Positions 261-50,860 of a stretch of 52,909 bases of DNA are shown here, one piece after another. The notes beneath the pieces are model-generated. The model was not told the DNA's origin. It saw nothing but the letters and a program-made list of their open reading frames with translations, and did no database searches. This DNA is from Geosiphon pyriformis (taxonomy: Eukaryota; Glomeromycota; Glomeromycetes; Archaeosporales; Geosiphonaceae): assembly GCA_016748015.1 (NCBI GenBank), contig JAAOMT010000492.1, positions 4,747 to 57,655 on the forward strand. The letters are read 5' to 3'. The position numbers and the translations under genes are program-made. Each line of letters opens with the position of its first letter. Positions within the stretch are counted from its first letter, which is position 1.

Positions 261-269
261 TGATTCAAA

Positions 270-915: not shown

Positions 916-916
916 A

Positions 917-3480: not shown

Positions 3481-3494
3481 TGTGATCAGACATT

Positions 3495-3645: not shown

Positions 3646-3649
3646 AAAA

Positions 3650-3767: not shown

Positions 3768-3769
3768 GA

Positions 3770-14444: not shown

Positions 14445-14542
14445 CAAATAACTTTCTAAACGTACTATCGAATAAACCTTTAAAGAAATCCTCTTTGAAT
14501 AATAACTTATTTACATTTTATCCTTTGTTCTTTATCCACATC
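14445..14542 (+). promoter_or_regulatory. kinase 5' flank copy
   Basis: CTTTCTAAACGTACTATCGA is followed by AATAAACCTTTAAAGAAATC and CTTTATCCACATC up to the ATG. It is nearly identical to the flanks at 26.4 kb and 30.0 kb. The conservation suggests promoter plus 5' UTR. Confidence 0.5.
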
Positions 14543-14768
14543 ATGGAATACAAAGAAATTAAAAGATATTGTCCATATGTTCATGATTGCAACGAATGTA
14601 AACGGTGTCAAAGGAGTATTAAAGATAATAAAGATTATATTTCGTGTACGGCATGCTGGTTCATATTTTTTTGAAAAACATTATAAATACTTCTTAAGCG
14701 GTAATGACGAGGTTGATGAAATAATTAAAATTCCAATCTATAATAATAGAAAAAGTATCTCAGATTGA
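14543..14768 (+). pseudogene. kinase exon-1 fragment with one-base T insertion
   Basis: From the ATG at 14,543 the frame reads MEYKEIKRYCPYVHDCNE, CKRCQRSIKDNK and ACWFIFF and then hits TGA. The intact gene at 26.3 kb has six Ts in the WFIFFEK stretch; this copy has seven, and the +1 frame continues FEKHYKYFLSGNDEVDEIIK to a stop at about 14,768. The glycine loop and everything after it are missing. It keeps a normal 5' flank but cannot encode a kinase. Confidence 0.8.
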
Positions 14769-14866
14769 AGTTTACACATATGGTGAACCTTGATTCGGAA
14801 ACTATCAACTCGCACATTAGCTAAATTCCTTTAAGAATCTAAAAATATATAGAGTGACATATTATA

Positions 14867-15495: not shown

Positions 15496-15842
15496 TGCTG
15501 ATCAAATTAATATATTTCGATAGCAAGGGCAGAGGATTTAAGCTAATATTAACAATTCTTAAAGTTATTGCCGAACTATTATCATTTAAAAATACTTATA
15601 TTAATTACAATAGTTTATTATACATTAGGTTTTTTAAATATTTTATATCGATCATTTCAATTTCTGAATTAGATTTCAATGGGCTTAAACAATAAACAGT
15701 AAATAACAAGAGTTTATCAGAATTGGCAACGGGTGAACAATTTTGCCATTGTAAAAACCCTTCCCTGATAACTTTGTTATATACTGATAAAGTTTTATTC
15801 CTATATAGACTAGATGGATATAGAAAAGATAATTGACAAATG

Positions 15843-15960
15843 TGGCTACCTCCTCCCGCTCTTCACTCTTGTAAGAAATCTTAAACTACAACTACCCCCT
15901 CCCGCTTTTCACTCTTGTAAGAAATCTTAAACTACCCCCCTCCCACTTTTTATTCTTGCC
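15843..15960 (+). repeat. about 52-bp tandem repeat, three partial units
   Basis: Units share CTCCCGCTCTTCACTCTTG then TAAGAAATCTTAAACTAC. The second reads CTCCCGCTTTTCACTCTTG and the third CTCCCACTTTTTATTCTTG. The decayed copy is at about 44,603-44,735. Confidence 0.8.
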
Positions 15961-16065
15961 AGGCATAAATAACAGACTAACAATTATCAATTCCTCACCA
16001 CCTAACCCTAAAATTTAATTCAGTTATTTGATGATCGATTGTTCATGAGTTTCTATTCCGTATTC

Positions 16066-16405
16066 ATTGGTTATTCGAATGTTGAATTGCGAATTGCTGG
16101 TGAGTGTGGTTATTCGAATGTTGAGTTGCAAATTACTGTTGGGTGATGGTTATAATTGAATGTTGAATTCACGCATTTTTGGTGGCCGGTGGTTATTCGA
16201 ATGTTGAGTTGCGAATTATTGGTGGGTGGTGGTTATATTCGAATGTTGAAGCGCGAATTATTGGTGGGTGATGGTTATTCGAATGTAGAAGCGCGAATTA
16301 TTGGTGGGTGGTGGTTATATTCGAATATTGAAGCACGAATTATTGGTGGGTGATGGTTATTCGAATGTTGAATTCGCGAATTATTGGTGAGCAGTGGTTA
16401 TCCGT
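16066..16405 (+). repeat. about 40-bp minisatellite, roughly eight units
   Basis: The unit is close to GGTTATTCGAATGTTGA followed by ATTGCGAATTATTGGTGGGT; variants have GAAGCGCGAATTATTGG. Every well-kept unit has CpG sites (TTCGAA, GCGAATT). The matching array at about 44,850-45,290 has nearly all of them changed to TG or CA. Confidence 0.85.
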
Positions 16406-16524
16406 CAATTGTTGGTGTCAAACTAGAGTCAATCTCAATAGGGTCTTCTTTTCCCGCCGATTTTGCCAAGCCCGTTCCGTTCACTAGATAGTAGATAGGA
16501 ACAGTTTAACCCATGATGCACATC

Positions 16525-16765
16525 AATAACCATAAGTGGAAACAGACATTTAGCTGGAATGCGGCAAGCACAGAGGTTAAATAACAATTCATGTCATTGA
16601 CCGTAAGTGGAAGCAGATATTCGGCAGAATGGGTACATGCACAGAGGTATAACAATTCATGTCATTGACCGTAAGTGGAAGCAGACATTCGGCAGAATAG
16701 GTACATGCACAGAGGTATAACAATTCATGTTATAGACCGTAAGTGAAAACAGACATTCGGCAGAA
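16525..16765 (+). repeat. about 66-bp minisatellite, four units
   Basis: Units run CAATTCATGTCATTGACCGT, AAGTGGAAGCAGACATTCGG, CAGAATGGGTACATGCACAG, AGGTATAA. The first unit is the most divergent, with TTTAGCTGGAATGCGGCAAG. The 44-kb copy keeps only about two units (45,420-45,540). Confidence 0.85.
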
Positions 16766-17659
16766 TGGGTGCACGCACAGTGGTTAGAGAACACCACATT
16801 TGGCGATATAAAGGAGTTGGAAACCCCGTGCTTGGTTGAGTTTCTTCGGTTAAGGTTGGGGTTCTTTCCGGTAAAGGATGCCCCCCTCCCTCACCCAACA
16901 CTTAGAGCTAGAAGAGATACGTCAACACCCTTACCTGGATTGTTCTATCAACTAGAGGTTTTAACCTTGGAGACTTGCTGCGATTATCAGTACGACTGGA
17001 GACGAGAATGAATCTCTCTTATATTTTTTTAGTGTTCTTTAGATTCGTGAGTCGTGAGTGGTGAGTCGTTAGTCGTACTGGTTATAGCTGTTGTGTTCGT
17101 GAGTTAGTGGACGTCGGTAATTTGTCGCCGATAAAGATAAGAGTAATCCCATATAGGATAAAATTTTGCTTAAAGCAGAGAACACCTCATTATATATGTT
17201 ACTGCCTCTAAGTTGTTGATTTTGAGATCAAAAATTACGCGTTTGTTTTTCACGCGAAAACAAGAATCCAAGAATACAAGGGTGGGGTTAACTAGACATT
17301 TTTAGTAAAATTGATTTGAAGATAACCTCCTGAGTTTTTAATATGTGGTCATTAAAAACAAAGCGTCACTTTTTGAAACCTTGGTACTTTCTGGAAATTT
17401 TTTATATTATTACGCGGATCCTCATGACTCATTTTTTTTTGTCTCGGCTATCCTAAAATGGCTAAATACAATCAGTATGGGAAATCACTTTAAAACCGTG
17501 GAACCCATATCTCTTATTCAAAAATTAATCACTAGACTGACTAATGTAAATGGCCACAGCATAAAGAACATGGTGTTTATATTTCATAGCCGAGTCCAAA
17601 TAGATGTTTCCCCTTCCTTTTTTGATTGTCCATCGAAACAGACCCCCTTTTTTTAAAGC

Positions 17660-20516: not shown

Positions 20517-21375
20517 AACCTTAAAAAATGGCATTAATAAACAGGTTAAGTAGCTATAAGGCACAAATTACGCCAAACAAAGTCTCATTTGTAGAACGAC
20601 AGCAATAAGAATAATGATAAAAACGATTTAGCAAAATAGTTTCTCAGTTTCTCTCTAAACTAAATTCGGTCTAATACATGAAAGTTTTTAGATATTAAGG
20701 GAATTTCTTCTCTTACTTCATCTATAGGAAAATTTTTATAAAACAAACTAATTAGCAAGCCTAAATAGGTTGGGCGCAAAAATACCTCTTTTCACGAAAA
20801 AAAATCCGTGCAGCCAATCCCGAAAGATCGCTCTGTAAAATTCAAGATTAGGTTATATTATTTCACGCAAACAATGAATGTCGAAATATATGTTGAAATG
20901 CTCAACGAACATCTTTACGAGATTTAAGAATTAATGGGAAAAGGTAGCAGTAGTTATTATTATTTGTTGCTGTTTTTTCTTACTGGTAACAACAGACAAA
21001 GAGTCTCAAATGAAACAGTTGATAGAAACAGAGACTATATAAAAACATATTAAATAATGTCCCAACAATAAAAACAGTAGAAATTCATCCAGGAGCAGTT
21101 TATAAAGAATTGTGTTTTAACAATGCTTATTTTAATTGACTCATTAATTTAATTATTATACAGTTTATATTAATTTACTTTTTTTCATAATGGAATTTAG
21201 TCTATTTGCCAAAGGTATGAAATTATAATAAATAAAATTTAAAATGTACTTTATGCTTGTGTTATTTTTTTCTTTTAATGTTTATTATATTTAGAGAATT
21301 CTTAATAGATTTAATTGTGAATGGTCATTTTAATTTTTTTGTTTCGTTATCCAACATCCCTTATTCCATTTGTAT
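20517..21375 (+). repeat. segmental duplication block, copy 2
   Basis: This is the second copy of the block at 2,505-3,480. It lacks some internal stretches, notably the part after GGGAAAAGGTAGC (20,938-20,950). It carries a Tc1-like fragment with a premature TAA and a kinase tail piece near 21,068-21,120 (IHPGAVY). Confidence 0.75.
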
Positions 21376-21545
21376 TGCCGAAATAATTGGGATGCTAATC
21401 CTGAGAGTCGTCCTGCTGCCAAAGAAGTTGACAAGAAGTTGAAGGAGCTTTACTCTATATATATGGTAAGAATCACTCGACAACAAAAACTTCAACGACA
21501 ACGAGCATTAATCCAGGAGCAGTTATACAAGTAGTGTTTTAAATT
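21376..21545 (+). pseudogene. kinase 3' fragment with internal deletion
   Basis: Recognisable pieces are CIAEII, then WDANPES-like and RPAAKEVDKKLKEL in shifted frames, then a tail AINPGAVIQVV. Compared with the intact gene, about 11 bases are missing between the AEII codons and WDAN (CCGAAATAATTGGGATGC here), which removes the invariant Cys and breaks the frame. It pairs with the fragment at 3,495-3,645 as part of the duplication. Confidence 0.7.
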
Positions 21546-21731
21546 TGCAAATGTTTGAAGCAACAAAAAGTTAGTTTATCTAAATTATAAGTGATAAACT
21601 TTATAATTAAATAATCTATTGTTTAATTTAATAAGCGAAACTTTTTTTTATTTTAATTTTCAAATATCATTTTTAAAACAGAAATTATTCACTTACAAAA
21701 GACGACTATTAATACACCCAATCACTTAATC

Positions 21732-22389
21732 GTGATCGATAATCTTCTTAGCAAAAAGTATATCGCTAATGGCCTTTGTTCAATTCATTATTCTGGTATA
21801 GTTCATCGTGACCTACACTCGGGCGACATCCTACAATTAGAAAAATATAGAGTAAATATTTGCGACCTTGGATTATGTCAACCCACAAACCATGAAGCAA
21901 CAACGACAGGTAAAGACGCGAAGAAAAAAAAGATATATTGAGTGATTCCATGCATTCCACCAGAAGTTTTAAGAGGAGAAAAGTTTAGAATGGCTGGTGA
22001 TATTTATAGTTTTGCATTGTTATTATGGGAATTAGCAACAAGAAAGCCTCCTTTTCATGATCGTTCTCATGACCACTTTCTCGTGATGGATATCCTTTAT
22101 AATGACATTAGACCTAAGATTACTCTCACTTATTCCACCTTCTATTGCCGAAATAATTGTAAAGTGTTGGGATGTTAATAATGAGAATCGTCCTACTGCG
22201 AATGAACTTAGGTTGAAGTTCGAGGGCTCGTCCACGGATTCCGAGTATATAGGATTAGAGAAATACGTAGAAGGAATATTAAAGAACGGCTCAACAATAA
22301 CAACAACAACGCCAACGCGTATTCATCCAGGAGCGGTTTATACAAGTCGTGTTTTAAGTTTGCAAATAATTGAAGAAACAAGAGGTTAG
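21732..22389 (+). pseudogene. kinase exon 2, 5'-truncated, stop and frameshift
   Basis: The frame covers YIANGLCSIHYSGIVHRDLH, SGDILQLEKYRVNICDLG, IPPEVLRGEKFRMAGDIYSF, ALLLWELATRKPPFHD and RPKITL. After that a frame change near 22,122 continues LIPPSIAEIIVKCWDVN, NRPTANELRLKFEG and the IHPGAVYTSRVLSLQ tail to a GTTAGT. Breaks are a TGA at 21,939-21,941 where other copies have the Gly of YGVIP, the frameshift, and the lack of the glycine loop and ATP-Lys. The HRD motif is intact, but SGN is SGD, which would lose the Mg-binding Asn. This is a dead copy. Confidence 0.85.
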
Positions 22390-22654
22390 TTTATCTATTT
22401 TTATATAAATATTTTAATTATTATACATATTAAAAATTTATATTAGTTTACTTCATAAAAGGATTAGTGTATTTCTCTGAAGGTAAGAATATATATGCTA
22501 AATTAAATTTATAAGCGATATACTGAATTCTAGATAGGCTTTATTAGATAATAAAATTTAATTTACAGTATATTAATTATAAAGGTTATTAGATGTTAAA
22601 ATAGATAATTTTAAAAAGGATATGCTCTCTTCTACCTAATCTCAATCATGTTAT

Positions 22655-22720: not shown

Positions 22721-24900
22721 ATTATTGCTTAACTATGAATAATCTAAGTAGCTTTCGTACACAAAGATATCAAGTTAGTTCCCCATTGTCTTTTTGCCTA
22801 AATGAGTAGTTCTAACAGATCTGTGAATAAGAGCTTAATCACTGCTACTTAAAAGTATTAAACTGATTGAAAAACATAAAACTGAAACAATATCATAAAT
22901 TTACTTAGAAAAATGAAATTAATATAGGGATCAGATATTTAAAATTTAAACGTGATTCGATGCATTTTATTATTTTTATAATTTGGAAATTGAAAAACTC
23001 TAAATGCATTTTTCCTTTCAAACAAACTTTAATAAAAACACCAAGTTTTTTTTAAAAATTTTCAGATATTTTCATTTGGAATTTCTAAATATTTAAATTT
23101 TTATTTATAATTTTTTCTTTATAGTTTTAATTTTTTCAAAATTAAAATAAAAAAGTTTTATTAACGCTCAAAAATAACTTTAGATTTTCAAAAAAAATTT
23201 TTGATGATTAATTCAAACATATTTTTCGTTAAACATAAATTTAAGAGAAATATTAAATCAACTTAAATACACAATACTATATTTCTTTATTAACTATATA
23301 TTATGTGATTATTCAAATTATATATATTTTAATTAAACTATATGTGATTTACTTACAAAAATTCATGTTTTAATAGATTAAAAAAATATATTTTGCTTGG
23401 TAAAACAAATTTTTTATTATTGAATCATATTTTTATTAATTATTTAGAGTTAACTTGATTCTGATTTTTTTGAAATCATCAAAAATTTGGTTTAATTTTA
23501 CTTCTTTTATATAATTAATTTGTTGCATACTTTTATATTTCTTATCTTAAATTTTTATTTGATTTTTGAAGAATATTTCAAAGATCTCTATATAAATAAT
23601 TTATATTTTAAGTGTTATTGTGATTATAATAGGTCAAATATTATTACTACTTCTATGATCATTTTTATTCTTGATAGATTTTAGGAAAATAAAATGCGAG
23701 CTAAATTATTTATTTAGTTCATCTTTTTAGCATAAATTGAATCTAAAAAAAATTATTTTCTAAAAATTGTGGAATATATATATTTTATTATTGGCTATTC
23801 TTTCAATGCATACTTTCTCTAAGTGCATAAATATATTTGGCTCCAAGGGTGTGCACATATAGGAATATTATTGTAATTTAATAAAAATTAATTTTATATA
23901 TATTTAGTTTTGGTATTAACAAATAAATAATGAAGATTTAATGAATTAATTAAAAAATGTATCATATTTATAGAATGGTTTGTTAAAATTATACTTGCCC
24001 ATGAACATTTAGTATATTTTATTTTAATTGTTAATAGTTTGCATTATTTTATGTACTAACGAAAATATTATTTTTTAATTTATTAAACACTGAAATTGTG
24101 AGTAAATCAAATAAAGTTTAATTAAAATATATAGAATAAAAATTAACTCAAAAATATATAATTTGAATGCTGTCACACAGTGAGGAGGTATATTATCGTG
24201 TATTTGAGTTGGTGTTAATATTTCTCGATTGATGGTGAACATTTACTGTTAAATTTTGGTCTAACAGAAAATCTTTTTGAAATTAACATATTAACATGGT
24301 CAACGAGGACGAGTAGTAGTTATGATATCACTTTACTATTAAGTTATTAATTCATTTTAGCCTGTTAACTTTAAAGTTTGAAAGAAAAAATAAAGTTAAA
24401 AATTTTTAAAATTTGATACCTCTCACTTTTAGTGAGTAGCTAAGGATAATAAAGATTCCTCGAAATGTTGATATTATAAGCAAAAGAGGTTTTGAAATTA
24501 AATCATAACTATTTATCGGCGTCTTTGTGTACTAAAAATCTACTTAAAATTAATTATATTTAAACTTAATCAATAAGAGTTCAAGGGAAACTGATCACTG
24601 TGAGCTATATCTTACAACATGATCGAGATTAGATAGGAGTTTGCAAGATTGGATTCAAACAAAAGAAATATTATTTTTTATCACTTATGAAACTAAAAAT
24701 ATTAATTTCATTATAGAGTTTAAAAATTGTGATGTCCGATCATTAAGAGTCGTCTAAATATGATAGATAGTAAAATAAGCTTTTAAATCAATTGCACACA
24801 CTGTAATTATATTTTTAATTTTGTTCAACTTCTTACCTTTTGGCAAATAAATTAATTCTTTTAAAAAGTAAAATAAATTTTGTGTTAATTAATTTAAATT
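22721..24900. other. AT-rich spacer, no gene recognised
   Basis: Some slightly GC-richer patches (24,160-24,330 and 24,580-24,660) have no consistent frame. The first 60 bp (to about 22,790) resemble the kinase 5' flank downstream of the scrap. Confidence 0.4.
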
Positions 24901-24906
24901 AATGAA

Positions 24907-26343
24907 TTAATCAATATAAAAATAGATAAACTGACCTTTTGTCTCTTCAAACATTTGCAAACTTAAAACACGACTTGTATAAATTGCTTGTGGATGAGTT
25001 TTTATCTTTGTTGTCGTTGTCATTATCGCTGTTTTTGAATGATTTGTTGTCGAGTCGTTTTTCAACATTTTTTTAACGTATTTCTCTGATTCTAAAAACT
25101 CTGAATTATAAGAAAAACGTAGTTCCCCCAACTCATTTTTAAGTTCTTTCGCAGTAGGACGATTCTTGGGATTAGGATCCCAACACTTTACGATCATTTC
25201 AGCAATTGAAGGTGGAATAAGTGGGTAAGTAATCTTAGGTCTTTGACCATTTAAAATATCCATTATAAGAATATGATCATGAGAACGATCATGAAAAGGA
25301 GGCTTTCCTGTTGCTAATTCCCATAATAACATGGCAAAACTAAAAATATCACCAGCCATTCTAAACTTTTCTCCTCTAAATACTTCTGGTGGAATGTATG
25401 GAATGACTCCATATATCTTTTTTTCCTTTGTTGTTGTTGCTTCATGGTTTACTGGTTGACATAATCCGAGGTCTCCAATATTTATAAATTGATTATCAAA
25501 TTGTAGGATGTTACCCGAGTGTAGGTCACGATGAACCATACCAGAGGAATGAATTTGTGAAAGTCCAGAAGCTATATTCCACGCGATCAATAATTTATCA
25601 GACCAACTCATAGAATGAAAATTTATTGATAAATATTTTCTCATGTCTCCATGTTCGGCAAACTGCATCACAATTCCATACTCGAGTGTTTCAGCGTTTT
25701 GCGTAATCCCCAATATTGAAGAGATCTGTTGTAAGCACCCACCGTTATTCATAAACATAGCTCTTTGAATATTTAACTGTAAAAAAGTAAATAAATAATA
25801 TCATAAATAAACGATAAGATATAATAAATAATATACTGTAAATAAATAATAGATAAATATTAATTAATAATATATATATATAAATATAAATAATAATACT
25901 TTGTTTACCTCTTTAAACACTTCTGAACTGTTGGTTTTTATAACTTTTATTGCTACTTCAGTGCCTATTCTTTCTCTTTCAAATTCCAATGAACCATGAT
26001 GTTTTATACTATATTTATTAATTAATCCATCAATTAGGGTTGCTTTATAAATTATACCGAACCCTCCTTTAGCAATTTCATTGATATTCGACAAACGCTC
26101 CCATGGAATCCATTCACAGTAATATAATTGAATATAAGGTGGAGTATAGATTGAATTTTTAATTATTTCATTAACTTCTTTATTCCCGCTTGAAAAGTCT
26201 TTATAATGTTTTTCAAAAAATATGAACCAGCATGCCGCACACGAATTATAATCTTTATTATCTTTAATACTCCTTTGACACCGTTTACATTCGTTGCAAT
26301 CATGAACATATGGACGATATCTATTAATTTCTTTGTATTCCAT
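24907..26343 (-). CDS. two-exon protein kinase, tyrosine-kinase-like, intact motifs
   Basis: This is the best-preserved kinase of the window. Exon 1 (26,343-25,909; 145 codons) starts MEYKEINRYRPYVHDCNE, has CKRCQRS and SCAACWFIFF, then YYCEWIPWERLSNI, the glycine loop AKGGFGIIYKA and VAIKVIK. A 132-nt intron (25,908-25,777; GTAAAC donor, TTTACAG acceptor) joins in phase 0 to LNIQRAMFMNNGG. Exon 2 has GIVMQFAEHGDMRKYL, MVHRDLHSGNILQ, GDLGLCQP, YIPPEVFRGEKF, DIFSFAMLLWELATGKPPF, IVKCWDPNPKNRPTAKEL and a Thr-rich tail ending IYTSRVLSLQMFEETKG. All catalytic residues are present; DFG reads DLG. The frame runs to TAA at 24,907, but a GTCAGT at 24,935-24,930 aligns with the donor-like site of the other copies. 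A further 3' exon is therefore possible. An in-frame ATG six codons upstream is less conserved. Confidence 0.9.
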
Positions 26344-26470
26344 GATTTGGATAAAGAACAAAGGATAAAGAAGGATAAAATATGAATAAGTTATTATTCA
26401 AAGAGGTTTTCTTTAAAAGTTTATTTAATAGTACATTTAGAAAGTTATTTGTCTAAAGGCGAGTTCTTAT
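26344..26470 (-). promoter_or_regulatory. kinase 5' flank
   Basis: On the minus strand, TTTAAAGAAAACCTCTTTGA and AATAACTTATTC lie between a CTTTCTAAATGTACTATTAA element and the start. It matches the flanks at 14.45 kb and 30.0 kb. Confidence 0.5.
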
Positions 26471-27190
26471 TTTATATTGTTTCTTCTATGTTCCCCATAG
26501 TGTTACAAATCAATTTATTAACCTTATTCATCATATTAAATAGGTTTAACTATCAACAAATTTAAGTTTCTTAAGTACACAATATACTAAAAAAGTTTAT
26601 AATTGTCTCATTGTATTGTTGGGCTAAATGACCAGTTCAATTTCTTTGTAGAACAACAACAACAGTAACAATAACAAATTAGGCGCATAAAAATTACTGT
26701 ATGATTTAATCATATGACCCCTATCATTATTAATCATTTTCTGTTTTACTATGAATAAAAGCATAAACACTGTTTCTTAAATTTTGGCCTAATGCTAAAA
26801 CAAATTTTAGCATTATCCTTTTAAATATCATAATATCACATTTCATAATTTAAAACAGTATATTTTATTGATAGGTGAACTTAATTTTTTAAACTTTTTT
26901 TCGTATAAAGAATAACTTTGACTCGAAATAAAGCAATTTTTTTAAATAATATTTTTAATAAAAACACAATTATTTATATTCAAATAGTATATTTAAAATT
27001 CAGCAATAATACGCGTGTAAAGAAAATCAAGTTACATTATCAGTTTATCCTTAGAGATTCTTAATAAATTTTTTTTGAAATTGGCAAAAAAAAGAATCTT
27101 ATATTCTTTCTATATAAGGGAAAATGTATTTGCTTGTAATCGATGGCATTTAATAGCATAATTCTAGAAAAGCAGTTTTTAATAAAGAAA
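26471..27190. other. AT-rich region between two kinase 5' ends
   Basis: It includes AATAGGTTTAACTATCAACA and AACAACAACAACAGTAACAA, resembling sequence upstream of the kinase copies at 2.5 kb and 4.0 kb. No gene recognised. Confidence 0.4.
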
Positions 27191-27195
27191 TCATT

Positions 27196-27259
27196 AAGCA
27201 TTTGCCACACTGCAATTATGAGCATATAGATGAGTTCTTCTAATTTCTTTGGGTTCCAT
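27196..27259 (-). pseudogene. kinase start fragment
   Basis: The minus-strand frame MEPKEIRRTHLYAHNCSV matches the kinase N-terminus and then stops after VANA. Only about 20 codons of exon 1 remain. A conserved 5' flank (27,260-27,330) and the upstream block at 27.6 kb follow. Confidence 0.65.
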
Positions 27260-27589
27260 GATGTGAATAAGTGCGTAAAAAGCATATAATGTGAATAGAT
27301 TATATTCGAAGAGCGTAGGTTTAGAAATTTTTTTTTTAAAGCGGAGTTGGTATTTTTACTGTTTCTTCATATTAACAAATCATAAAATGTCGTTATTCAT
27401 GAAACTAGTATTCGATGCAAATCATACTAAATTGGTTTAAAGCTCAAAATGAAATAAATATAGGGAATCAAAGACATTTTAAAAATTTAAATATTAATTC
27501 GAATTTTCATAACATTAAAAAATTTATCTTTTAAAATGCAATAATATATATATTTTTATTAATAGTGTTAGTTTTAGTTTGTATAACAG

Positions 27590-27899: not shown

Positions 27900-30005
27900 T
27901 CATGTTGTTTAATCATTTTTAAAAGCAAGAACTCGATAATAAAATTAAAGAGTTAATGAAATTTAACCGTTACAATATTATTTAACAAAAGAATTTTAAT
28001 TTTTTAGTATAAACTCTTAAATATGTAGATATGTAGAAATGCAATTTTTCTTAACTTATAGAGAATAAGCTTCTCATAATTTAAAAAATTGATAAAATAA
28101 TTAAAAACTTAATTTTAAAAAAAGCAAGTATTTTTAAAATTTTTAAAAAAATACATAAGCAATTATAAGTTATAATGCTCGAATAATAATATTTAAATAT
28201 AAAATAAATTTAGTTATCATTTTATTGTCTTAATATTTTTTTCTTTTTAAAAAGTAATAATAAAATCTTTTAATATTAATCTAATTTTATTATATTAATT
28301 AAAGTTAAAATAAAATTAATTTTTATTGCTCAATTGTAAATTTTGTAAAATTAAATAACATTATTAAAATACCACAATATAATTTATTTTGAATTAAATA
28401 AAGATTTTTAAACAAAAGATATTTAATTTACATTTAAAATTGAATATAAATATAAAATATAAATTTGAAAAAATATATTATAAATAAAATTTTGATTATT
28501 TGTTTTATTTACTGTTTTTATTTTTTTAATGTTCTTTTTAAAATATAAAGTTTAAAACTTAATCAGTTATTTCTTTATTTTGGAATATTAACAATTTTTT
28601 TATATGAAAAAACTCGCTGCACTAATGTCATACCTCCAATCTATTGTGAAATCCTTTCATTTAAGTGATGAATTTCCTAATAAAAGATCTTGAATAAAAT
28701 ATCAAATTTAGGTAATATAGAGTAGATAATCAATTATTTAAGTAATTATTTTGCTCAACTGGCTTCCAAGTTAGAAATATTAGATTTTTACCAATTTTTT
28801 TTGAGAAACCTTTAATCTAGTTTCGCCCTTATACCGGTTCAAATAGAGGTTCACCCTTTAAAAAATTATTATAACTAAAATAAAATTTTCTTTTTAAAGT
28901 TCAAAGTAAAAGACTTTGATAAGAATTCCAAATCTAATTATATCATAATTTTTATTTAAATACTTTTCAGGTTTGAATAACCTGAAAAATATCGAACTAT
29001 TTATTTATTAATTTATTTTTTATTTATTTTATAGCCACCTCTATGTTAATTTAATTAATATGTTTAATTTCCATAAAAATTTCAAATGCTTTAGAATTAT
29101 TATCATGAAAATTTATAAAGCCGATTAAGTTTTTATTGTAATTTTAAATTTCTAAAAATTTACCAAAGTCATTTTAACTCCAATTATATAGATTAAACAA
29201 AGTTACTGAAAATGTTTATTATTAGACAAATAATTAATTCAATATAAAGTGTTTTCTAAAAAAAAAGGAATATGCAAAATAATAAATATTGATTATTTCT
29301 TTTTTTAATTTTTATAAAAATATAAACATATTTTTATTCTATCTTAATTTCATAAAATTTTATAAAATAAAAGTAAATTATTTTTGTTCATTATTTAAAG
29401 ATCATAAATATAAAATTTAAAATCAATTTATAAAATTTGTTAAATATTGACATTTAAAAAAAGCGATGAAAATTTTTCACAAACGCAATATAATATTTGA
29501 TCACTATCTAAATTTTTAATATTATTTGATATTAAAAACTCTCAACATACAACTTTTCTTAATACGAAATCAAATTTAAAAAATATTCAAATCAAAAACT
29601 TTTATTTTCAACTTCTTAATAATTCTGATCAATGATATATCTATTATTAAATTATATGAAAATAAACTTTTTTTAATTATAAAAACCATCAAGCTCATCT
29701 ATTAATAGAATATATTATTATGAAATGATTTTCAGTGAATAAATAAATTTAATTTACTCCTCGAATTACATTTAAAATTTTGAATATCTCTGATACTTTA
29801 TTGATTTTCATTTAAAGTCTTATTTTTTAATTTAAATTACACATTTTAACTAAAGATCTGAAAATGATTAATGAAGCAACGATTAAATTATATAGCATTT
29901 TTCATACTTCACATGAAACCTAATTGTTTTTATACTTGTTTCGCTATAAAGGAATCAAACTATTTGTTTAGAATATGAAACTTTATGATTTTTAAAAATA
30001 TAGAA
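27900..30005. other. AT-rich spacer, old dispersed repeats
   Basis: A stretch near 29,080-29,450 resembles parts of the repeat pair at 36.7 and 42.0 kb (AAATTTATAAAGCC, ATTTCATAAAATTTTATAAA). The 28,850 motif is shared with 12,980. No gene recognised. Confidence 0.35.
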
Positions 30006-30019
30006 ACAGCCTTTAAAAA

Positions 30020-30143
30020 TCTTTCTAAACGTATTATCGAATAAAGCTTTAAAAAAAACCTCTTCGAATAATAATCTATTCACATATTATATTTTTTCCT
30101 TTATCCTCTGTCCACTGTCCACATCATGGGAAACAAAGAAATT
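30020..30143 (+). pseudogene. kinase 5' flank and first six codons, cut by a junction
   Basis: CTTTCTAAACGTATTATCGA, AATAAAGCTTTAAAAAAAAC and the CCACATC-ATG context are the standard kinase 5' flank. The ATG at 30,126 starts MGNKEI (GGAAACAAAGAAATT), and kinase similarity then stops at about 30,143. The next bases (TCATCAAGTTTATC) belong to a coding stretch on the opposite strand that reads best with TGA as Trp. This is therefore the left breakpoint of the Mollicutes-like block. Confidence 0.7.
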
Positions 30144-30275
30144 TCATCAAGTTTATCTAAATTCTTTTGAGCTTCTTCGGCTCATATTACTTTATAAATT
30201 TATTTCTTTAAGAATGAAATAATTTATTTCAATTTACTTTTTTTAATCCTAAACTTTCCAGCAAATCATTCTCGG
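30144..30275 (-). pseudogene. bacterial-type coding fragment at the junction
   Basis: In code 4 the minus strand gives ENDLLESLGLKKVNWNKLFH (W from TGA at 30229-30231) and, in another frame, VIWAEEAQKNLDKLDEI (W from TGA at 30182-30184) up to the kinase junction. One frameshift separates them. No family recognised. It may be the 3' continuation of the ribbon-helix-helix gene next to it. Confidence 0.45.
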
Positions 30276-30321
30276 TATGAAATTATAGATTTTTTTTTCT
30301 TTTCTTTTTTGTAATATTTTT

Positions 30322-30486
30322 CTAATTTACTAACCTTTCTAAATATCAAGTTAAAGTCTTTAAAAGGTAAAATTCACGAGGTTTATAGATAAGATTTTCA
30401 AACCTTTTTAAGTTTTTTTCTAAGTGTTGTTTAGTTTCTTTAGGTAAATTTATAGTAGTTAACCTAATTTGGTTTTTAATTCTTTT
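30322..30486 (-). pseudogene. ribbon-helix-helix-like protein, second copy
   Basis: The frame has KRIKNQIRLTTINLPKETKQ, HLEKNLKRF, KPREFYLLKTLTWYLERL. The beta-strand/LPKE/helix/REF/helix order, (R)LTTINLPKE...PREFYLLKTLTWYLE, is that of small DNA-binding RHH proteins (CopG/Arc/MetJ fold). The W of TWYLE is a TGA at 30346-30348. It is homologous to the neighbour at 30,532-30,741 (ELPKxLExxLENIKK...PKEFIVYETLVKYIE). The frame then meets TAG at 30322-30324. A start codon was not identified. Function would be transcription repression or antitoxin-like binding; no toxin partner is visible. Confidence 0.5.
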
Positions 30487-30531
30487 GAACTTTTATCAAT
30501 CTTCTCTAATGTATATTTTTTTTTAGTCTCG

Positions 30532-30741
30532 TTATAAAATCCCTAAAGCTTTCCAAACTGAAAATTTTTGAATATCCTCTAACTTTTCAATATACTTAAC
30601 TAAAGTTTCATAAACAATAAATTCTTTAGGTTGCTCACTAACTTTTTTAATATTTTCAAGACACCTTTCTAATTTTTTAGGAAGTTCTAATTTAATTTCT
30701 AACTTTTTTAATTTAGATTTTGTAACAATCGATTTTATCAT
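30532..30741 (-). CDS. ribbon-helix-helix-like small protein
   Basis: This 69-aa frame runs MIKSIVTKSKLKKLEIKLEL, PKKLERCLENIKKV, PKEFIVYETLVKYIEKLED and ends FSVWKALGIL. A basic N-terminus, a short beta strand (LEIKLELP) and two helices with the P-K-E-F turn fit the RHH fold of CopG/Arc-type DNA-binding proteins. It contains no TGA, so it is also open in the standard code. A paralogue lies just downstream on the same strand (30,322-30,486), which makes a tandem pair. No Shine-Dalgarno sequence is obvious. The family call rests on pattern only. Confidence 0.5.
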   Translation of the reverse strand: MIKSIVTKSKLKKLEIKLELPKKLERCLENIKKVSEQPKEFIVYETLVKYIEKLEDIQKFSVWKALGIL

Positions 30742-30843
30742 ATTTGTTATTATTTATATTATAGTTTATACTAATATAGATTTTACACTATACAGTTGTT
30801 TTGGTTTATCAATTTTTACTACTCCCACATTAGTTCTTTCCAT

Positions 30844-31095
30844 TTAAGCTAAACTAATATTCTGACTATCTTTAATTACTGCTTTAAAATTGGGAATAAT
30901 ATTTTTAGCATCTTTAATATTATCTCATTTGCTACTTCTTAAACTAATCTTTTCTAAGTTAATTAAGTTTGATAAGTCTAGTTGAATAATACTTTTACAA
31001 TCAGTTATTCATAAGTTCTTAATTTTTTTACTCTCATCTTTATCAAATTTAAGCACTTGAACTGCTTTCTGCCAATTATTCAAGAAAGATAATTA
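30844..31095 (-). pseudogene. leucine-rich-repeat-like fragment
   Basis: In code 4 the minus strand reads FLNNWQKAVQVLKFDKDES, KKIKNLWITDCKSIIQLDLS, NLINLEKISLRSSKWDNIKD, AKNIIPNFKAVIKDSQ to a TAA at 30844-30846. LWITDC...LDLSNLINLEKISLRSS is spaced like leucine-rich repeats (L-x-I-x-x-C, L-x-L-S-N-L-x-N-L). The Ws in NLWIT and SKWDN are TGAs at 31009-31011 and 30925-30927. Upstream, KTENKPFNYLSW lies in another frame, so the N-terminus is broken. LRR proteins are common in bacteria that live in host cells; this is inference. Confidence 0.5.
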
Positions 31096-31223
31096 AAAGG
31101 TTTGTTTTCAGTTTTGTTTTCTAATTTACTTTATTTTTGTAGATGAGGAAAATAGGGATAAAAAAAACCACTAGAACACCAACACAAAAAGGGTGATTAA
31201 AACATTTAATTTAAAATGAAATT

Positions 31224-31942
31224 ATGGATAGAAATAATTTAGTGCAAACATTCGAAAATTTAACAATTAAAAATGATCTAGAAGAATTTAAAGAAAAGGT
31301 TATCCAAGAAATAGCAAAATTGTGAAAACAATTAGAGAAAATCAAGAACAACTTCTTGACTAAAATAAGCGGAATATTAACAACAAGAAAACTATTAAAG
31401 ATATTGAGAAATATTTAACTAATAAAAAGAAAAGGTTAAATGTTAAAAGGATTAATACTTCTTGGTCACATGACAATTATTACCATTTTAAAAAACATGG
31501 TTTAGACAGCAAGGTTAATATCCACTTTGACTATCCATTTGAGAAAGTATAAAGAAACTACAAACTAAGTTTCACTTGTAATATAAATTAACTAGTCGTA
31601 GATCTGTAAAAAAATCAGAGGATCAACAATAATCTTTTTTATGAATCTTGATATTTTATTACTACATTAGAAAATACTTATAAAAAAGTTTGTGATAATA
31701 GAAATGAGTGTCCTATTTGTGGTTATAATTGTGAAAAATATTCTTGCTCAACATTTTGTGAGTTTTGCCAAAAGAAAACCAATCTGGTTCAGAAGTGTGA
31801 TTGTCAAGCCAAAGAAGTTAAATGGGAAGTTAAAGAAGAAATAAAAAGTTAGTTCTTCCAAAAAAATTCTTCTTCTAATGACCATAATAATAGTGACAAT
31901 GATCAAGTTTATGACTATAAAGACTATGAGTATAAAGAATAA
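31224..31942 (+). pseudogene. broken code-4 gene with Cys-rich zinc-finger-like region
   Basis: From an ATG at 31,224 the frame reads MDRNNLVQTFENLTIKN and KEKVIQEIAKLWKQLEKIK (W from TGA at 31323-31325). A +1 shift near 31,345 leads to a frame that stays the same to 31,942: IKDIEKYLTNKKKRLNVKR, INTSWSHDNYYHFKKHG, LFYESWYFITTLENTYKK (W from TGA at 31649-31651). It then gives CPICGYNCEKYSCSTFCEFC, CDCQAKEVKWEVKEE and an acidic Asn/Asp tail. Several TAA and one TAG interrupt it. The CPIC...CEFC...CDC pattern suggests zinc binding. Length would be about 240 codons. Family not recognised. Confidence 0.5.
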
Positions 31943-32128
31943 GAAAGAAAACTAATCTATATAATGACTAAAAGACAAGATATTTTATATTTATTCTAAA
32001 GACAAACAAATAGTTTTCTTTTCTTATTATTAACTACTAAAACTGAACCTAAAACTGCTACTATTCTAACTAAAATTAATATATATAAAGTGAATAAAAG
32101 TTCGAATTGTGTTGTTTTCTTGTTTTAA
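31943..32128 (+). other. possible further coding fragment
   Basis: MTKRQDILYLF then TAA, then a Thr/Leu-rich frame to about 32,126. It may be a decayed hydrophobic segment or chance. No clear feature. Confidence 0.25.
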
Positions 32129-32335
32129 TTAAACCAACTCATTTCTTTTGTCTTTTAATTCTTGATTTTCTGCTGGGATTCGATTAGTTTTTTCTCTAGT
32201 TTTTTGTTTTAATTCTCTTAATTGTTTTTTTAAATGGTTTTTCTCCAGTACAAGTTTTTCTATCTCTTCTGTGCCTCTTATTAAATTTCATAATCTTAAT
32301 ATAAAAAAAATATTTTCCCAATTATTCAAAAAAAA
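32129..32335 (-). pseudogene. coiled-coil protein fragment
   Basis: The code-4 frame reads FLNNWENIFFILRLWNLIRG (W in RLWNL is TGA at 32288-32290), then TEEIEKLVLEKNHLKKQLRE and LKQKTREKTNRIPAENQELK, ending NELV-TAA. Heptad-spaced Leu/Ile make a coiled coil. FLNNW also begins the LRR-like piece at 31,090 (FLNNWQKAVQVLKF), which suggests a shared domain border. The 5' end is broken by TAA. Confidence 0.5.
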
Positions 32336-32465
32336 TTAATACTTAAACAAATCAACGAGAAAAAAATCCTTGGCTCTCATGTGAGACAAAATGCTAACAT
32401 AATTGATGCACAGGTTGTTAAAAATAGCTAAAACAACTTTCTAAACTTCTTGTAAATTAATTTTC

Positions 32466-32618
32466 CTAGTATTTTTTGTAACATCGAGAACATGTGATTA
32501 AAATCACTGATTTGCCTTGATTATAACTGTCTCAATTCTTTAAAACTTTATAAGATAATTCATGTTTAAAAATAGGTAAAAAACAACCATGACAAATGAT
32601 AGGAATTTGTCGAGACAT
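32466..32618 (-). CDS. 50-aa two-CxxC protein, intact only in code 4
   Basis: ATG at 32,618 and TAG at 32466-32468 bound a 50-residue frame: MSRQIPIICHGCFLPIFKHE, LSYKVLKNWDSYNQGKSVIL, ITCSRCYKKY. The W at residue 29 is a TGA (32532-32534). In the standard code it would stop after 28 residues and lose the second CxxC. Paired CHGC and CSRC about 30 residues apart resemble a small zinc ribbon, as in some RNA-polymerase-associated or ribosomal-type proteins. That length and Cys spacing point to metal binding, but a specific family is not claimed. It overlaps no other good frame except the Lys-rich frame just upstream. Confidence 0.6.
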
Positions 32619-32692
32619 TTTGACAAATTATTTTTTTATCCTTAGAAATTTCCTCATTATTGCTTTGTCTCTTTCTATTTTCATTAATATTT

Positions 32693-32790
32693 TTATCTTT
32701 TTTTCTTACTACTTATTAGCCAAATTGAACCAATTACTAATATTACTGATCCACCAACAATTAAAGTTGGTTTGATTTAAGAATTATTTA
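32693..32790 (-). pseudogene. C-terminal membrane anchor fragment
   Basis: FLNNS, a TAA, then IKPTLIVGGSVILVIGSIWL and ISSKKKR-stop. A 20-residue hydrophobic segment followed by a Lys/Arg tail fits a single-pass C-terminal anchor with a positive inside end. The N-terminal part of the protein is not found. Confidence 0.45.
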
Positions 32791-32839
32791 AGAAAATAAA
32801 AGATTAAGAAATAGATAAAAAGTATAATTAAAATAAATT

Positions 32840-33088
32840 GTGAAAATAGAAAAATCGAAAGAAAAAATAAAGTTTTTTCTCACCAATTTGAAAGAAAATT
32901 TGGAGGATCAATTGAGTAATTCTATTAAAAAAAATAAAACAGAAATGAAAAAGTTAGTAGCCAAAAGATTGGCGGAAATAGAAAAAAAATGAAAAAATCT
33001 AAGAATCTTTTTATTAGTTGTTGTGTGTTTTTTAGTTCTTTTATTGATCATTGTTGGAGTATTTTTTTATTTGTCAAGAAATAGTTAA
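32840..33088 (+). CDS. 82-aa coiled-coil protein with C-terminal membrane anchor, intact only in code 4
   Basis: From GTG at 32,840 to TAA at 33086-33088 the frame gives VKIEKSKEKIKFFLTNLKEN, LEDQLSNSIKKNKTEMKKLV, AKRLAEIEKKWKNLRIFLLV and VVCFLVLLLIIVGVFFYLSRNS. Residue 51 is a TGA read as Trp (32990-32992). Read as a stop, it would cut the protein exactly before its 24-residue membrane segment. The first 50 residues are charged and helical. With code 4 the gene has no other defect. GTG start is a guess; the first internal Met is residue 36. Role unknown. It is one of three anchor-type products in this block. Confidence 0.6.
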
Positions 33089-33135
33089 TTTTAGTTGGTT
33101 GTGATAAAAGTAATTCTAGAAACTAAAAAAAAGAT

Positions 33136-33190
33136 TAGAGAATGAGACATAAAATAAATAAAGAATGAGACATAAAATAAATAAAAAATG
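33136..33190 (+). repeat. short tandem repeat, about 23 bp, two to three units
   Basis: AGAATGAGACATAAAATAAA repeats with TAA linkers (GAATGAGACATAAAATAAAT twice). It lies between two convergent anchor-type genes. Confidence 0.7.
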
Positions 33191-33316
33191 TGATAATAAC
33201 TAGTATCTCCTCTGTATGAGCTCTGCAATCTATATTTTTTTGTAGTTCTTATTTACTTAATAAGAAACTCACACTGAATTTGTTTTCTTCATGTTTTTTT
33301 TCTATTCTTTTAATTG

Positions 33317-35108
33317 CTATTCAATTTCTTCATTAGCTTTCCGTCCTTGTTGGAAATAGACAATTAATTCTACTAATCCTAGCACCACAACAGCCACAAT
33401 TAAGAAATCTGCTAATATTAGTGTATTTGAAGATGGTCCTCTTGGTGGTTGTTTTTCTTGAGCTTTTTTTATTTTTGCAATCTTAGCTTGAATTTCTTTT
33501 ATCAGATTTGTAATAACTTTTTTTTCAGAATCTTCTAAATTATTAGTAAATACACCATTCTGAATAGTTCCACTTTTAGTATATTCTTTTAAGTCTTTCA
33601 ATTACTTTTCTAATTGAGTTTTTTTATTTTCATTTTTTAAATTTTTTCCAGAATAATTAGGGTTGAAAAATTTAAATAAATCAATTAGTTTTTTAGCTTT
33701 ATCAACTTACTTTCTAGATGCTTAGCGAGCTTTCTCTGAGGAATAAGTTCGTTTTTAAATTTTTCTTTTTCTGTAGCCTTTAATATCATTTTCATTAACA
33801 CTATTAATTTTTGCTTTAAATGAAGCTTCATCAACAAAATCTTTGTTTCAAATCTTTCTTAAAAATTCTGCTTGCTTTTCTTTAAAAGTTTTTTGCTCTT
33901 CTTTAGTATCTGTGTATAATTTTAATCTATAGTCAGCATAACCACTTCCATCAGTATGTTTATATATATTGATCATTTCTCGGCCACCAGTTTTGTTAGT
34001 TTTAGGTTTCTTTAATTTAGTTAATTTAGCAATATCTTTTTTAGTAGCACCTTTAACTCCGCAAATTTTCTCATGATTCCCACAGCTTCAAATGCAATTT
34101 TCGCATCATTATTTGTCATGCTATTTTTCATGGCAGTCCTTTTGTCTTTATCACCTTCAATTTTGTTGATTTCAACTTCTAATTCCTTTTTAAAAAGATC
34201 AAGAAGAGAATCATCAGGTTTAAGAGGTTTGTTAATTAGTATTAAGATTTGGCTGTTTATTTCAATAATTTTATTTACTATTTTCTTCCTTCAATGTTGT
34301 TATATTTTTTTGTAGCTAGTATTGTTTTTCCCTGGGTTTTTCAACAAGTAATTGAATAATTTTGCTCTAGCTTCATTCAACTCTTTAATTTTATTAGATT
34401 GATAACTTTTGTAATTTTTTTCGAATGTTTCAATAAATTTTTTTATTATTTGGTAATTATCTTCAACTTTTTTCTTGGACCATTTAGTGCTCCGGCGTAG
34501 TTATTAAAATAATTGCTTTTATTTCAATCTTTGCCATGATTTGCTTTGCTAATACATTTGTGATGCTTCAATGTATTATAATAATTATTTAGTATTTGAA
34601 ATTTACTTATCCTGTTTTCTTCAATTTTATTAAAATAAAGTAAACATTTGTTATTATTGACATCATATCTTTCATTATTTTTACTAATTATATTTTTATA
34701 AGGTATTTTATAAAAAAGTAAATCAATAATCTTATCAATATTTGGTGCTGTTCAAGCATTTATTGTCATTTTAGAATATGGAAAATTATCTATTCCAGTT
34801 TCCAATATTTAATCATTATTGTTAATCATACTTTCAGAATGATTACCATAACTTATAATAGAAAAAGAAATAAAGTCAAAAAATTAACAGGTTTAAAGCC
34901 ACAACATTTATTTCGTTTAGTTTCTTTGCTATAGTTACTGTTATTTATTACACTAATAAAAAATTTACCATCCTAAAAGAAATCAATTAATGCTTTGTGA
35001 TATTGAGTTATTAAAATTCCTTTGTATTTCTTATCAAGACTAGAAAAATACTTTTTAATTTCACTAACATTTAAACTGTTGAAATGAATTTTCTTAAAAA
35101 AGACATAC
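33317..35108 (-). pseudogene. large code-4 protein (about 590 codons), broken, with C-terminal membrane anchor
   Basis: Pieces in order: FFKKIHFNSLNVSEIKKYFS, YKGILITQYHKALIDFF, FISVINNSNYSKETKRNKCC, NAWTAPNIDKIIDLLFYKIP, KDWNKSNYFNNYAGALNGP, VEDNYQIIKKFIETFEKNYK, LFNYLLKNPGKNNTSYKKI, QHWRKKIVNKIIEINSQILI, FKKELEVEINKIEGDKDKR, NDAKIAFEAVGIMRKF, VKGATKKDIAKLTKLKKPK, REMINIYKHTDGSGYADYRL, KQAEFLRKIWNKDFVDEASF, KKLIDLFKFFNPNYSGKNL, then EDSEKKVITNLIKEIQAKIA and an anchor LILADFLIVAVVVLGLVELI ending NEEIE. The Ws of NAW, KDW, QHW and KIW are TGAs. Three frameshifts (near 34,880, 34,475 and 34,062) and about seven TAA/TAG stops break it. The last 94 codons (33,317-33,601) are open. Family not recognised; architecture suggests a surface or secreted anchored protein. 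Confidence 0.6.
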
Positions 35109-35109
35109 T

Positions 35110-35310
35110 AATATTATTATATAATTTAAAATTGCGATGAATTGATAATTGTATTGGGTTGTGATTAAAAAAGACAAGTTGTTTAAGCAGAAAAATGGCA
35201 TACTTTTACACATCTGATTTTCACAAAAAAAATTATTTTGCTAGCTTTACCACAATACTTTTATTTGCATAACACTCCTTTTAATATTTTTGGGATTTAT
35301 TTATTAATAT
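35110..35310. other. uncertain right flank of the Mollicutes-like block
   Basis: No clear frame and no fungal repeat recognised. No kinase sequence continuing from the left breakpoint (30,143) is found here, so this is not a simple insertion with both kinase halves retained. Confidence 0.3.
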
Positions 35311-44189: not shown

Positions 44190-46230
44190 AATCAAATTAA
44201 TATATTTTGATAGCAAAGGCAGAGAGTTTTCGGTTTACACATTAAAAAAGTATATTAAGTATGCTCAATAATGCCTAAATTTTAATATTTAAATTCAAAC
44301 TTGTGTAAAAAAGGTTTCAAGGATATTTAACCAGTGGTTTAAAAATAAAGTTATTATTGCTTGGACTTAAGCCAATATTAGCAATTCTTAAAGTTATTAC
44401 CAAACTATTATCATTTAAAAATACATATATTAATTACAATAGTATATTATATATTAGGTTTCTTAAATATTTTATATTGATCATTTCAAATTTCTGAATT
44501 AAATTTCAATAGACTTAAACAATAAACAGTAAATAACAAGAGTTTATTAAAATTGGCAATAGGTAAACAATTTTTCTATAAACTAGATAAATATAGAAAA
44601 AATAATTGACAAATATGGCTACCTTCTTCTGCTCTTTATTTTTGTAAGAAATCTTAAACTAAAACTACTCCTTTTTATTTTTCACTTTTATAAAAAATCT
44701 TAAACTACCTTCCTTTCACTTTTTATTCTTGCAAGACATAATTAACAAACTAACAATTATTAATTTCTCATCACCTAATCTTAAAATTTAATTCAGTTAT
44801 TTGATGATCAATTGTTTATGAATTTCTATTTCGTATTCATTGGCTATTTGAATATTGAATTGTGAATTACTGGTAAGCATGGTATTTTAAATATTGAAAT
44901 GCGAATTATTGGTAGATAATGATTATTTGAATGTTGAGTTACAAATTATTAGTAGGTAATGGTTATTCAAATGTTGAATTTGTGCATTTTTGGTGAGTAG
45001 TAATTATTAAATATTGAGTTGAATTATTGGTGAGTAGTGGTTATATTTGAATGTTGAATTCATGTATTTTTAATGGCTGGTAGTTATTTAAATATTGAGT
45101 TGTGAAATATTGGTGAGTGGTTATATTCAAATGTTAAATCACAAATTATTAGTGAGTGATGATTATTCAAATGTTAAATTTATACATTTTTGGTGGATGG
45201 TAGTTATTCAAATATTAAGTTGTGAATTATTATGGGTGGTAATTATTCCACTTTTAAATTCACAAATTATTGGTGGGCAGTAGTTATCTATTAATTATTG
45301 GTATTTAATTAGAGTTAAACTCAATAGAGTCTTTTTTTTCTGCCAATTTTGCCAAGCCTATTCTGTTAGCTGTGATTTTATTAAATAGTAGATAGGAATA
45401 GTTTAACTCATGATACATATCAATGACTATAAGTAAAAACAGACATTTAGCTAGAATGTAACAAACACAGAGATATAATAATTCATGTTATAAACTATAA
45501 GTGAAAACAAATATTCAGCAGAATAGATGCATGTACAGTAGTTAAAAAACACCATATTTGGTAATATAAAGAAGTTGAAAATTTCATGCTTGGTTGAGTT
45601 TTTTTGGTTAAGATGAAAATTTTTTTTAATAAAAGATGCTTTCTTTTTTTATCCAACACTTAGAGTTAGAAGAAATACATTAACACTTTTACCTGGATTG
45701 TTTTATTAACTAAAGGCTTTTAATCTTGGATACTGCTATAGTTATCAGTATAACTGAAAATAATAATAAATCTCTTAAATTTTTTTAGTGTTCTTTAAAT
45801 TTGTGAGTCATAAGTGGTGAGTTGTTAGTCATACTGGTTATAGCTGTTAGGTTTATAAGTTGGTAAATGCCAATAATTTGTTACTGATAAAGACAAGATT
45901 AATCTCATATAGAATAAAATTTTGCTTAAAAACAGAGAACACTTTTTTATATATATTACTGTCTTTAAGTTATTAATTTTGAGATCAAAAATTATGCATT
46001 TGTTTTTTATGCAAAATCACAAAAACAAGAATACAAGAATACAAAAGTGAGGTTAACTAATATGTAGTAATTAAAAACAAAACATCACTTTTTAAAATCT
46101 TGGTATTTTCTGGAAATTTTTTATATTATTATGTAAATTCTTATGACTAATGTAATATTAAACAGATCTTTATGACTTATTTTTTTTGACTCTGTTATCT
46201 TAAAATGGTTAAATACAATCAGTATAAAAA
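44190..46230 (+). mobile_element. dispersed element of about 2 kb, C-to-T/G-to-A converted copy
   Basis: It is colinear with 15,496-17,480. CTACCTCCTCCCGCTCTTCA becomes CTACCTTCTTCTGCTCTTTA. GACATTCGGCAGAATGGGTG becomes AATATTCAGCAGAATAGATG. GGATGCCCCCCTCCCTCACC becomes AGATGCTTTCTTTTTTTATC. Changes are overwhelmingly transitions that lower GC, on both strands, and CpG is almost absent. It also has an extra ~150 bp near 44,225-44,370 and lacks ~60 bp present at 15,740-15,800. Confidence 0.8.
44850..45295 (+). repeat. decayed minisatellite, about 40-bp units
   Basis: Units like GGTTATTCAAATGTTGAATT and ACAAATTATTAGTAGGTAAT correspond to the CpG-containing units at 16,066-16,405. There are more units here (about ten) than in the other copy. 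Confidence 0.75.
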
Positions 46231-49859: not shown

Positions 49860-50225
49860 AAAAGCAGTTTCTATATAAGCATTATATATTTGGTTTTCTA
49901 ATTAATTAAAGATCACATGAAATTTTAAAGTTAGTGAAGCATAAATTGCAATTGACAAAAAAATAACAAACAAAATTATTAGAATTACTTTTTAAACATT
50001 AATTATAAATAGTCAAGAGAAAAATTTATATGGTCAATTTCTAAAAACAGTTTCCATAAAAGTATTATATATTTGGTATTCCAATCAATTAAAGATTACA
50101 CAAGATTTTCAAATTAGTAAAGCTTTAATTATAATTAATAAGAATTAAAAAACAAAATTATTAGGATCACTTTCCAAGCACTGGCCATAAATAATAAACA
50201 AAAAATAAAAATTTATATGAGTACA
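49860..50225 (+). repeat. tandem duplication of about 180 bp
   Basis: AGCAGTTTCTATATAAGCAT, TTATATATTTGGTTTTC and AATTAATTAAAGATCACA recur about 180 bp later as AACAGTTTCCATAAAAGTAT, TTATATATTTGGTATTCC and AATCAATTAAAGATTACA. Confidence 0.75.
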
Positions 50226-50860
50226 AAATAATATTGAGTTATTCTGGTATTAAATATATCAGCATAGAAATACAGTAAATATTAAAACGTTTTATAAAGT
50301 GCTAACAAGTCTTTTTCCAAGCATTGGCCATAGATATCTATAAAATAGAGACTTGTATAAGATAAGATAACATCAAATTATTCTGGTAAAAAGTGTCTTA
50401 GCATAAAATATAGCAAATACTATCAGGTATTAAAAAGTCTTTTTTCAAGCATTGGTTATAGATATTTATAAAATGAAAACTTATATGAAAGTAAAATAAT
50501 ATTGAGTTATTTTGGTAAAAAGCATATTAGTATAAAATACAGCAAATGCTAAAATGTCTTATTAAGTATTAATAAATCTTTTTTTAAGTATTGACTATAG
50601 ATATCTATAAAATGAAAACTTATATAAGAGTAGAATAATATCAAGTTATTCTAATAAAAAATATCTTAGCATAAAATACAGCAAGTACTATCAAATGCTA
50701 AGAAGTCTCTTTCTAAGCATCAGTCATAGATATTCATAGAATAGAAACTTATATAAAGATAGAATAAAATTAAGTTATTCTGGTAAAAAATATGTTAGCA
50801 TAAAATACAGCAAGCACTGAAAGTTCTGTCAGGTGCTAAGAAGTTTTTTTCTCAATTTTT
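50170..50860 (+). repeat. about 135-bp tandem repeat, five units
   Basis: Each unit has CCAAGCATTGGCCATAGATA (variants), AAAATGAAAACTTATAT, TTATTCTGGTAAAAA and TTAGCATAAAATACAGCAA. Unit starts are near 50,172, 50,314, 50,440, 50,583 and 50,712. Divergence between units is moderate, again mostly transitions. No protein frame passes through the array. Confidence 0.8.

Follow-up and report, generated by a model that had tools for sequence, protein, structure and literature searches.

Structure of the block

The window analysed here comprises 52,909 nt of a Geosiphon pyriformis contig (JAAOMT010000492.1, positions 4,747 to 57,655; assembly GCA_016748015.1), and all positions below refer to it. 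Within this very AT-rich fungal contig, a block of about 5 kb at 30,144-35,110 carries dense but broken genes on both strands. An original prediction, made from the letters of the sequence, had described it as a multi-gene, still readable segment of Mollicutes DNA in a fungal chromosome, with TGA read as tryptophan (genetic code 4). DNA searches showed that the block is present as a single copy in the 124.7-Mb assembly of 406 contigs. In 1-kb steps, its GC content was 0.23-0.25 from 30 to 35 kb versus 0.16 at 29-30 kb and 36-37 kb.

The largest feature, here called gene A (33317-35107, minus strand), is the pseudogene of a single large protein with a transmembrane-like helix at its C-terminus. 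It contains at least three frameshifts and is spread over at least four frame segments. The path from 33317 to 34808 is interrupted by TAA at 33602 and 34300 and by TGA at 33848, 34291, 34524 and 34752, and contains no TGG; three more TAA codons lie at 33,707-33,755, where the reading shifts to another frame. The C-terminal part (33,317-33,601) is open under the standard code. The portion at 34809-35107, which probably belongs to gene A as well, has a TAG at 34,973. A 44-aa piece at 34,976-35,107 was considered as a Xer-type recombinase, but its match to Phage_int_SAM_4 (E 0.087, with 17 queries from the block run against Pfam) was attributed to chance.

Smaller gene remains fill the rest of the block. 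On the minus strand, a frame at 30144-30382 runs into the left junction and holds two TGA codons with two TAA codons between them; it reads ...YREwFAGKFRIKKSK and KVIwAEEAQKNLDKLDE (w = TGA). On the same strand, small basic protein 1 (30325-30492, one TGA at 30346-30348) weakly resembles (27% identity) small protein 2, a standard-code open frame of 69 aa at 30532-30741. Small protein 2 is possibly a candidate antitoxin of the RelB/ribbon-helix-helix type, judged by a weak match to the NCBIfam RelB-like family (E 0.0014, 18.8 bits with a cut-off of 50) and one to phrog_4085 (E 0.0006); it also matched the unrelated SWIRM-assoc_1 (E 0.0008), and its AlphaFold model was helical only (pLDDT 61). 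A fragment at 30844-31092 (two TGA, one TGG) looked leucine-rich-repeat-like by eye and gave no family match above cut-off, and a coiled-coil-like piece lies at 32132-32335 (one TGA, one TGG).

The plus strand carries a coiled-coil piece with a basic tail in two frames (31224-31549; one TGA, one TGG), whose tail matched RnlA_toxin_N weakly (E 0.0015, 19.2 bits with a cut-off of 24). A cysteine-rich piece at 31610-31849 (one TGA, one TGG), zinc-ribbon-like by eye, had no family match. At 32837-33085 there is a piece with a coiled coil and, as read from the sequence, a transmembrane-like segment (one TGA). Every family match obtained with block pieces was below the curated cut-off, and the weak RelB and RnlA matches were not relied on. 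No introns were noticed in the block, although no search was aimed at them.

The frame changes in gene A and the TAA codons in its path show that this segment is pseudogenic, and the block genes in general are broken by frameshifts and by TAA or TAG as well as by TGA. The original prediction that frames extend or become intact with TGA as tryptophan therefore holds in part: 12 of the 15 code-4 open reading frames (ORFs) of at least 60 aa that lie wholly inside the block contain one or more TGA, several of these ORFs being antisense overlaps of each other, but with frameshifts and TAA codons the genes are not intact. Likewise, several gene remains are still readable in pieces, while the genes themselves have decayed. 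Under the standard code, no more than three open frames reach 60 aa, and one of these, at 34,073-34,315, is antisense to gene A.

Coding potential and boundaries

The block contained 24 stretches of 60 or more codons without a code-4 stop, compared with 10.3 ± 3.1 in first-order Markov simulations, none of which reached as many (0/300); the longest stretch was not unusual by itself (46/300). Coding signal was scored with a codon model for which two Mollicutes genomes served as the training set and in which all stop codons and TGG were neutral. The block scored 215.6 versus 101.4 ± 14.3 in second-order simulations (0/60), which was more than any of the three other 5-kb stretches tested, one bearing kinase genes (153.8, 0/60) and two from other parts of the flanks (100.9, 1/60, and 84.3, 17/60). 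As this score exceeds both the simulations and the flanks, the block represents a real and dense assemblage of gene remains on both strands. Decoding against the region itself as background proved too weak, and a six-frame contrast was used instead; the latter marked almost the whole window as coding, so that only scores and simulations were relied on.

The left edge of the block, at 30143/30144, is a sharp breakpoint at a junction with host sequence. The 5′ leader of a kinase copy together with its first six codons (MGNKEI) occupies 29996-30143 on the plus strand and is cut at this point. It matches five other copies in the window, at 3897-3750, 26473-26326, 14446-14560, 2456-2331 and 27313-27242 (74-78% identity), and all five matches stop at 30,143, six codons into the kinase. 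The right edge at 35,110 is approximate: similarity to the repeats of the flank is weak when it resumes at about 35.7 kb and becomes clear at 36.1 kb. Matches to these flank-filling repeats are few, short and weak within the block itself. The distinctness of the block from 30,144 onwards was confirmed as originally described. Exons in the flanks encode kinase domains (PF07714, in two better-preserved copies with E 1.3e-40 and 3.1e-38) and a BTB-associated BACK domain (PF07707, 5.2e-07).

The kinase copies at 1-4000, 14400-14770, 20800-22450 and 24900-27400 are a cluster of members of one family, present in both orientations as better-preserved, partial and broken copies.

Reading of TGA codons

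Code 4 is plausible for the block, though unproven. In gene A, with frames chosen blind to stops, about 497 codons (33,317-34,808) included four TGA and no TGG, close to what would be expected of Mollicutes with similar GC content; three Mollicutes genomes had 7.1-9.2 TGA and 1.2-2.8 TGG per 1000 codons. The frames judged real contained 10 in-frame TGA and five TGG, in addition to the two TGA of the left-edge frame; these frames had been chosen by their code-4 reading and are biased towards TGA, and a TGA at 34,090 beyond a frameshift was excluded. When picked segments were compared, the TGG:TGA counts were 3:12 in six block segments and 16:5 in five host segments (Fisher p 0.0019), a difference to be read in the light of the authors' choice of segments, which left out the kinase at 1791-2591 (TGG 4, TGA 0) and four segments of the block. 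With the stop-blind Mollicutes-trained model, no other segment of at least 60 codons in the window scored as high per codon as 33,227-34,062 (0.307). The next best (0.244) was again in the block; host kinase pieces reached 0.239, 0.216 and 0.211 and the BTB-BACK exon 0.230.

Other results, together with the donor searches of the next section, weigh against a Mollicutes reading of the block. Across all decoded block segments (1491 codons) there were eight TGG and 20 TGA, which equals the background ratio of the block (0.40), so that decay alone could explain why TGA outnumbers TGG. Of the 10 stops along the path of gene A, 4 were TGA, compared with a background share of 0.21 (p 0.14). The extension of frames was not particular to TGA, contrary to what had been proposed: the ORF excess seen with TGA as tryptophan (z 4.9) was equalled under the standard code (6.0) and when TAG was read through (6.2). 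Code-4 ORF length as a proof of code 4 was ruled out by these TAG and by TAA controls. A test for coding on both sides gave p 0.036 in the block versus 0.0039 in a fungal flank and is thus unreliable. GC at third codon positions (GC3) relative to first and second positions (GC1 and GC2) was 0.71 in host and block alike; codon-position GC was accordingly dropped as a discriminator of host and donor.

Search for a donor

Searches with six pieces of the block against viral contigs, two against plasmids and one each against phages and genome contigs found no credible homologue. Two queries against 320 Mollicutes genomes (order of Mycoplasmopsis iners) gave the same result. The weak matches there were near chance, involving 3 of the 320 genomes for the first query (best 7.1e-5 per genome, 20.5 bits) and 10 for the second (8.7e-4); all three loci of the first query and 6 of the 10 of the second were inspected and none was convincing. 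A fungal-type kinase used as query matched 216 of the 320 genomes without any outlier (best E 4.1e-24; identities up to 35% among the matches listed). Because the Glomeromycotina-type kinase expected of them from published accounts (PMC10507103) gave no such outlier, Mollicutes-related endobacteria are probably absent from this set. The missing donor homologue is therefore weak negative evidence, as endobacteria of fungi probably lie outside the genomes compared.

A co-assembled donor was looked for with two bacterial marker families, neither of which was found in the assembly. Bacterial DNA polymerase III alpha (PF07733) had no match, while 10 of 14 control genomes contained it, and tyrosine recombinase (PF00589) had none at E ≤ 0.001 in the whole assembly, while it was found in 14 of 14 controls. 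The sole matches to ribosomal families S12/S23 were two exons of one host-type gene, with a TGA in its intron.

Origin of the block

The evidence is best explained by foreign, bacterial-style DNA in a fungal contig, given the gene density on two strands, the sharp left junction, the single copy and the lack of matches to the two bacterial marker families elsewhere in the assembly. Nuclear insertion of bacterial DNA followed by decay, taking all bacterial donors together, is probable. That the donor was Mollicutes-like, the block being an old pseudogenised insertion of such DNA, has about an even chance; the top score per codon and the TGA without TGG in gene A support this part only weakly. 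More tentatively, with odds somewhat below even, the block may be a segment of several genes from a Mollicutes-related endobacterium using code 4, lodged in a Glomeromycotina nuclear genome and dead on arrival across the genetic-code barrier. The original claim of Mollicutes DNA in a fungus was thus upheld as regards a foreign, bacterial-style segment, but its Mollicutes part was left with several tests of code 4 that were negative or unspecific and with no credible homologue in the 320 genomes.

A single old insertion of a few kb of bacterial DNA would account for the block, the most likely source being a Mollicutes-related endobacterium using TGA as tryptophan. DNA that escaped from the endosymbiont may have been joined at a chromosome break, probably by end-joining, to the 5′ end of a kinase gene belonging to the expanded family. 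With TGA being a stop codon for the fungus, the inserted genes would not have been fully expressible on arrival, and they would then have drifted as pseudogenes, presumably without function.

Among the alternatives, a decayed AT-rich element of standard code (a relative of large DNA viruses, a plasmid or a standard-code bacterium), in which the TGA codons are ordinary nonsense mutations, fares best, although it is unlikely. It is in agreement with the standard-code ORF excess, which is as strong as that under code 4, and with the three frames open under the standard code. A precedent is the endogenous 1.5-Mb asfarvirus-like region of Rhizophagus irregularis, for which intron-like sequences in 22 predicted genes and fewer transposons than in the remaining genome are given in the available text (PMC10640383). 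The GC content of that region, however, is above that of its host (36.6 versus 27.9%, same source), whereas the block reaches only 0.23-0.25. The six viral-contig scans without a relative, and the four TGA and absent TGG in gene A, also argue against such an element.

An assembly chimera, in which DNA of a living endobacterium was misjoined into a fungal contig and the broken genes are the bacterium's own pseudogenes, is improbable. In its favour, a survey of 389 public Mucoromycota assemblies reported Mollicutes-related endobacterial sequence in 19, and genomes of these endobacteria are described as generally enriched in pseudogenes (PMC11423566). A chimera, however, is at odds with the assembly lacking polymerase III alpha and tyrosine recombinase matches and having S12/S23 matches in one host-type two-exon gene only. 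Moreover, the block is flanked on both sides by fungal sequence, and its GC content is below the 29-33% given for recovered endobacterial genomes in PMC11423566.

Slightly less probable still are degenerate host genes or repeats without any foreign DNA, in which G-to-A and C-to-T decay turned TGG into TGA: the equal relative GC3 of block and host exons, the background TGG:TGA ratio of the block and an AT-shifted host-repeat copy suggesting that such decay may occur here would fit, but no DNA relative was found elsewhere in the assembly, the two pieces tried as proteins had no relative there (next best E 0.6 for one, none for the other), and none of 23 aligned tryptophan positions in host kinase copies had become TGA or TAG (17 TGG, 4 TTG, 2 other; overlapping matches counted twice).

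Comparison with known transfers

Nuclear insertions of endosymbiont DNA occur, for example of Wolbachia DNA in insects and nematodes. Like these, the block is a multi-gene stretch of bacterial style in a host contig, present as a single copy and decaying to pseudogenes. It differs in that the host is a fungus and that the likely donor would read TGA as tryptophan. Like the block, Candidatus Moeniiplasma glomeromycotorum is AT-rich and has many pseudogenes; its annotation uses the Mycoplasma code and it has leucine-rich-repeat proteins, two features that the block may share, according to the available parts of PMC10507103 and PMC11423566; the block differs by its position in a fungal contig and its lower GC content. 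XerC/D recombinases, described as enriched in many Mollicutes-related endobacteria, were not found here; PF00589 had no match in the assembly.

In the open-access literature, as far as its available text extends, no description of endobacterial DNA in the chromosome of a fungus was found, whereas the reverse flow is published: kinase and leucine-rich-repeat genes moved from host to endobacterium (PMC10507103), a transfer that involves the same types of partner but runs opposite to the direction suggested by the block. Bacterial genes in Rhizophagus irregularis, whose donors are not among known endobacteria according to the extracts available from PMC5982333, likewise went from bacterium to fungus; the block differs in that several gene remains lie together. 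If the insertion were dated, it would reveal a past partnership of this kind in the lineage and provide a test of whether differing genetic codes turn such transfers into dead ends.

Repeats in the flanks

The region at 15-20 kb was considered as a second code-4 block and rejected, as a minisatellite explains the largest code-4 frames there. This minisatellite, at 15981-16484, consists of units of about 40 nt and produces a spurious code-4 frame of 168 aa with eight TGA; it is a warning for code-4 scans. The segments 15534-17174 and 44363-45930 are diverged copies of one repeat unit, with 75-92% identity in pieces. The copy at 44363-45930 is strongly AT-shifted, and its differences resemble G-to-A and C-to-T changes; they look like what repeat-targeted or methylation-linked decay would give. 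At 50202-50827, a unit of about 130 nt is repeated in about four tandem copies.

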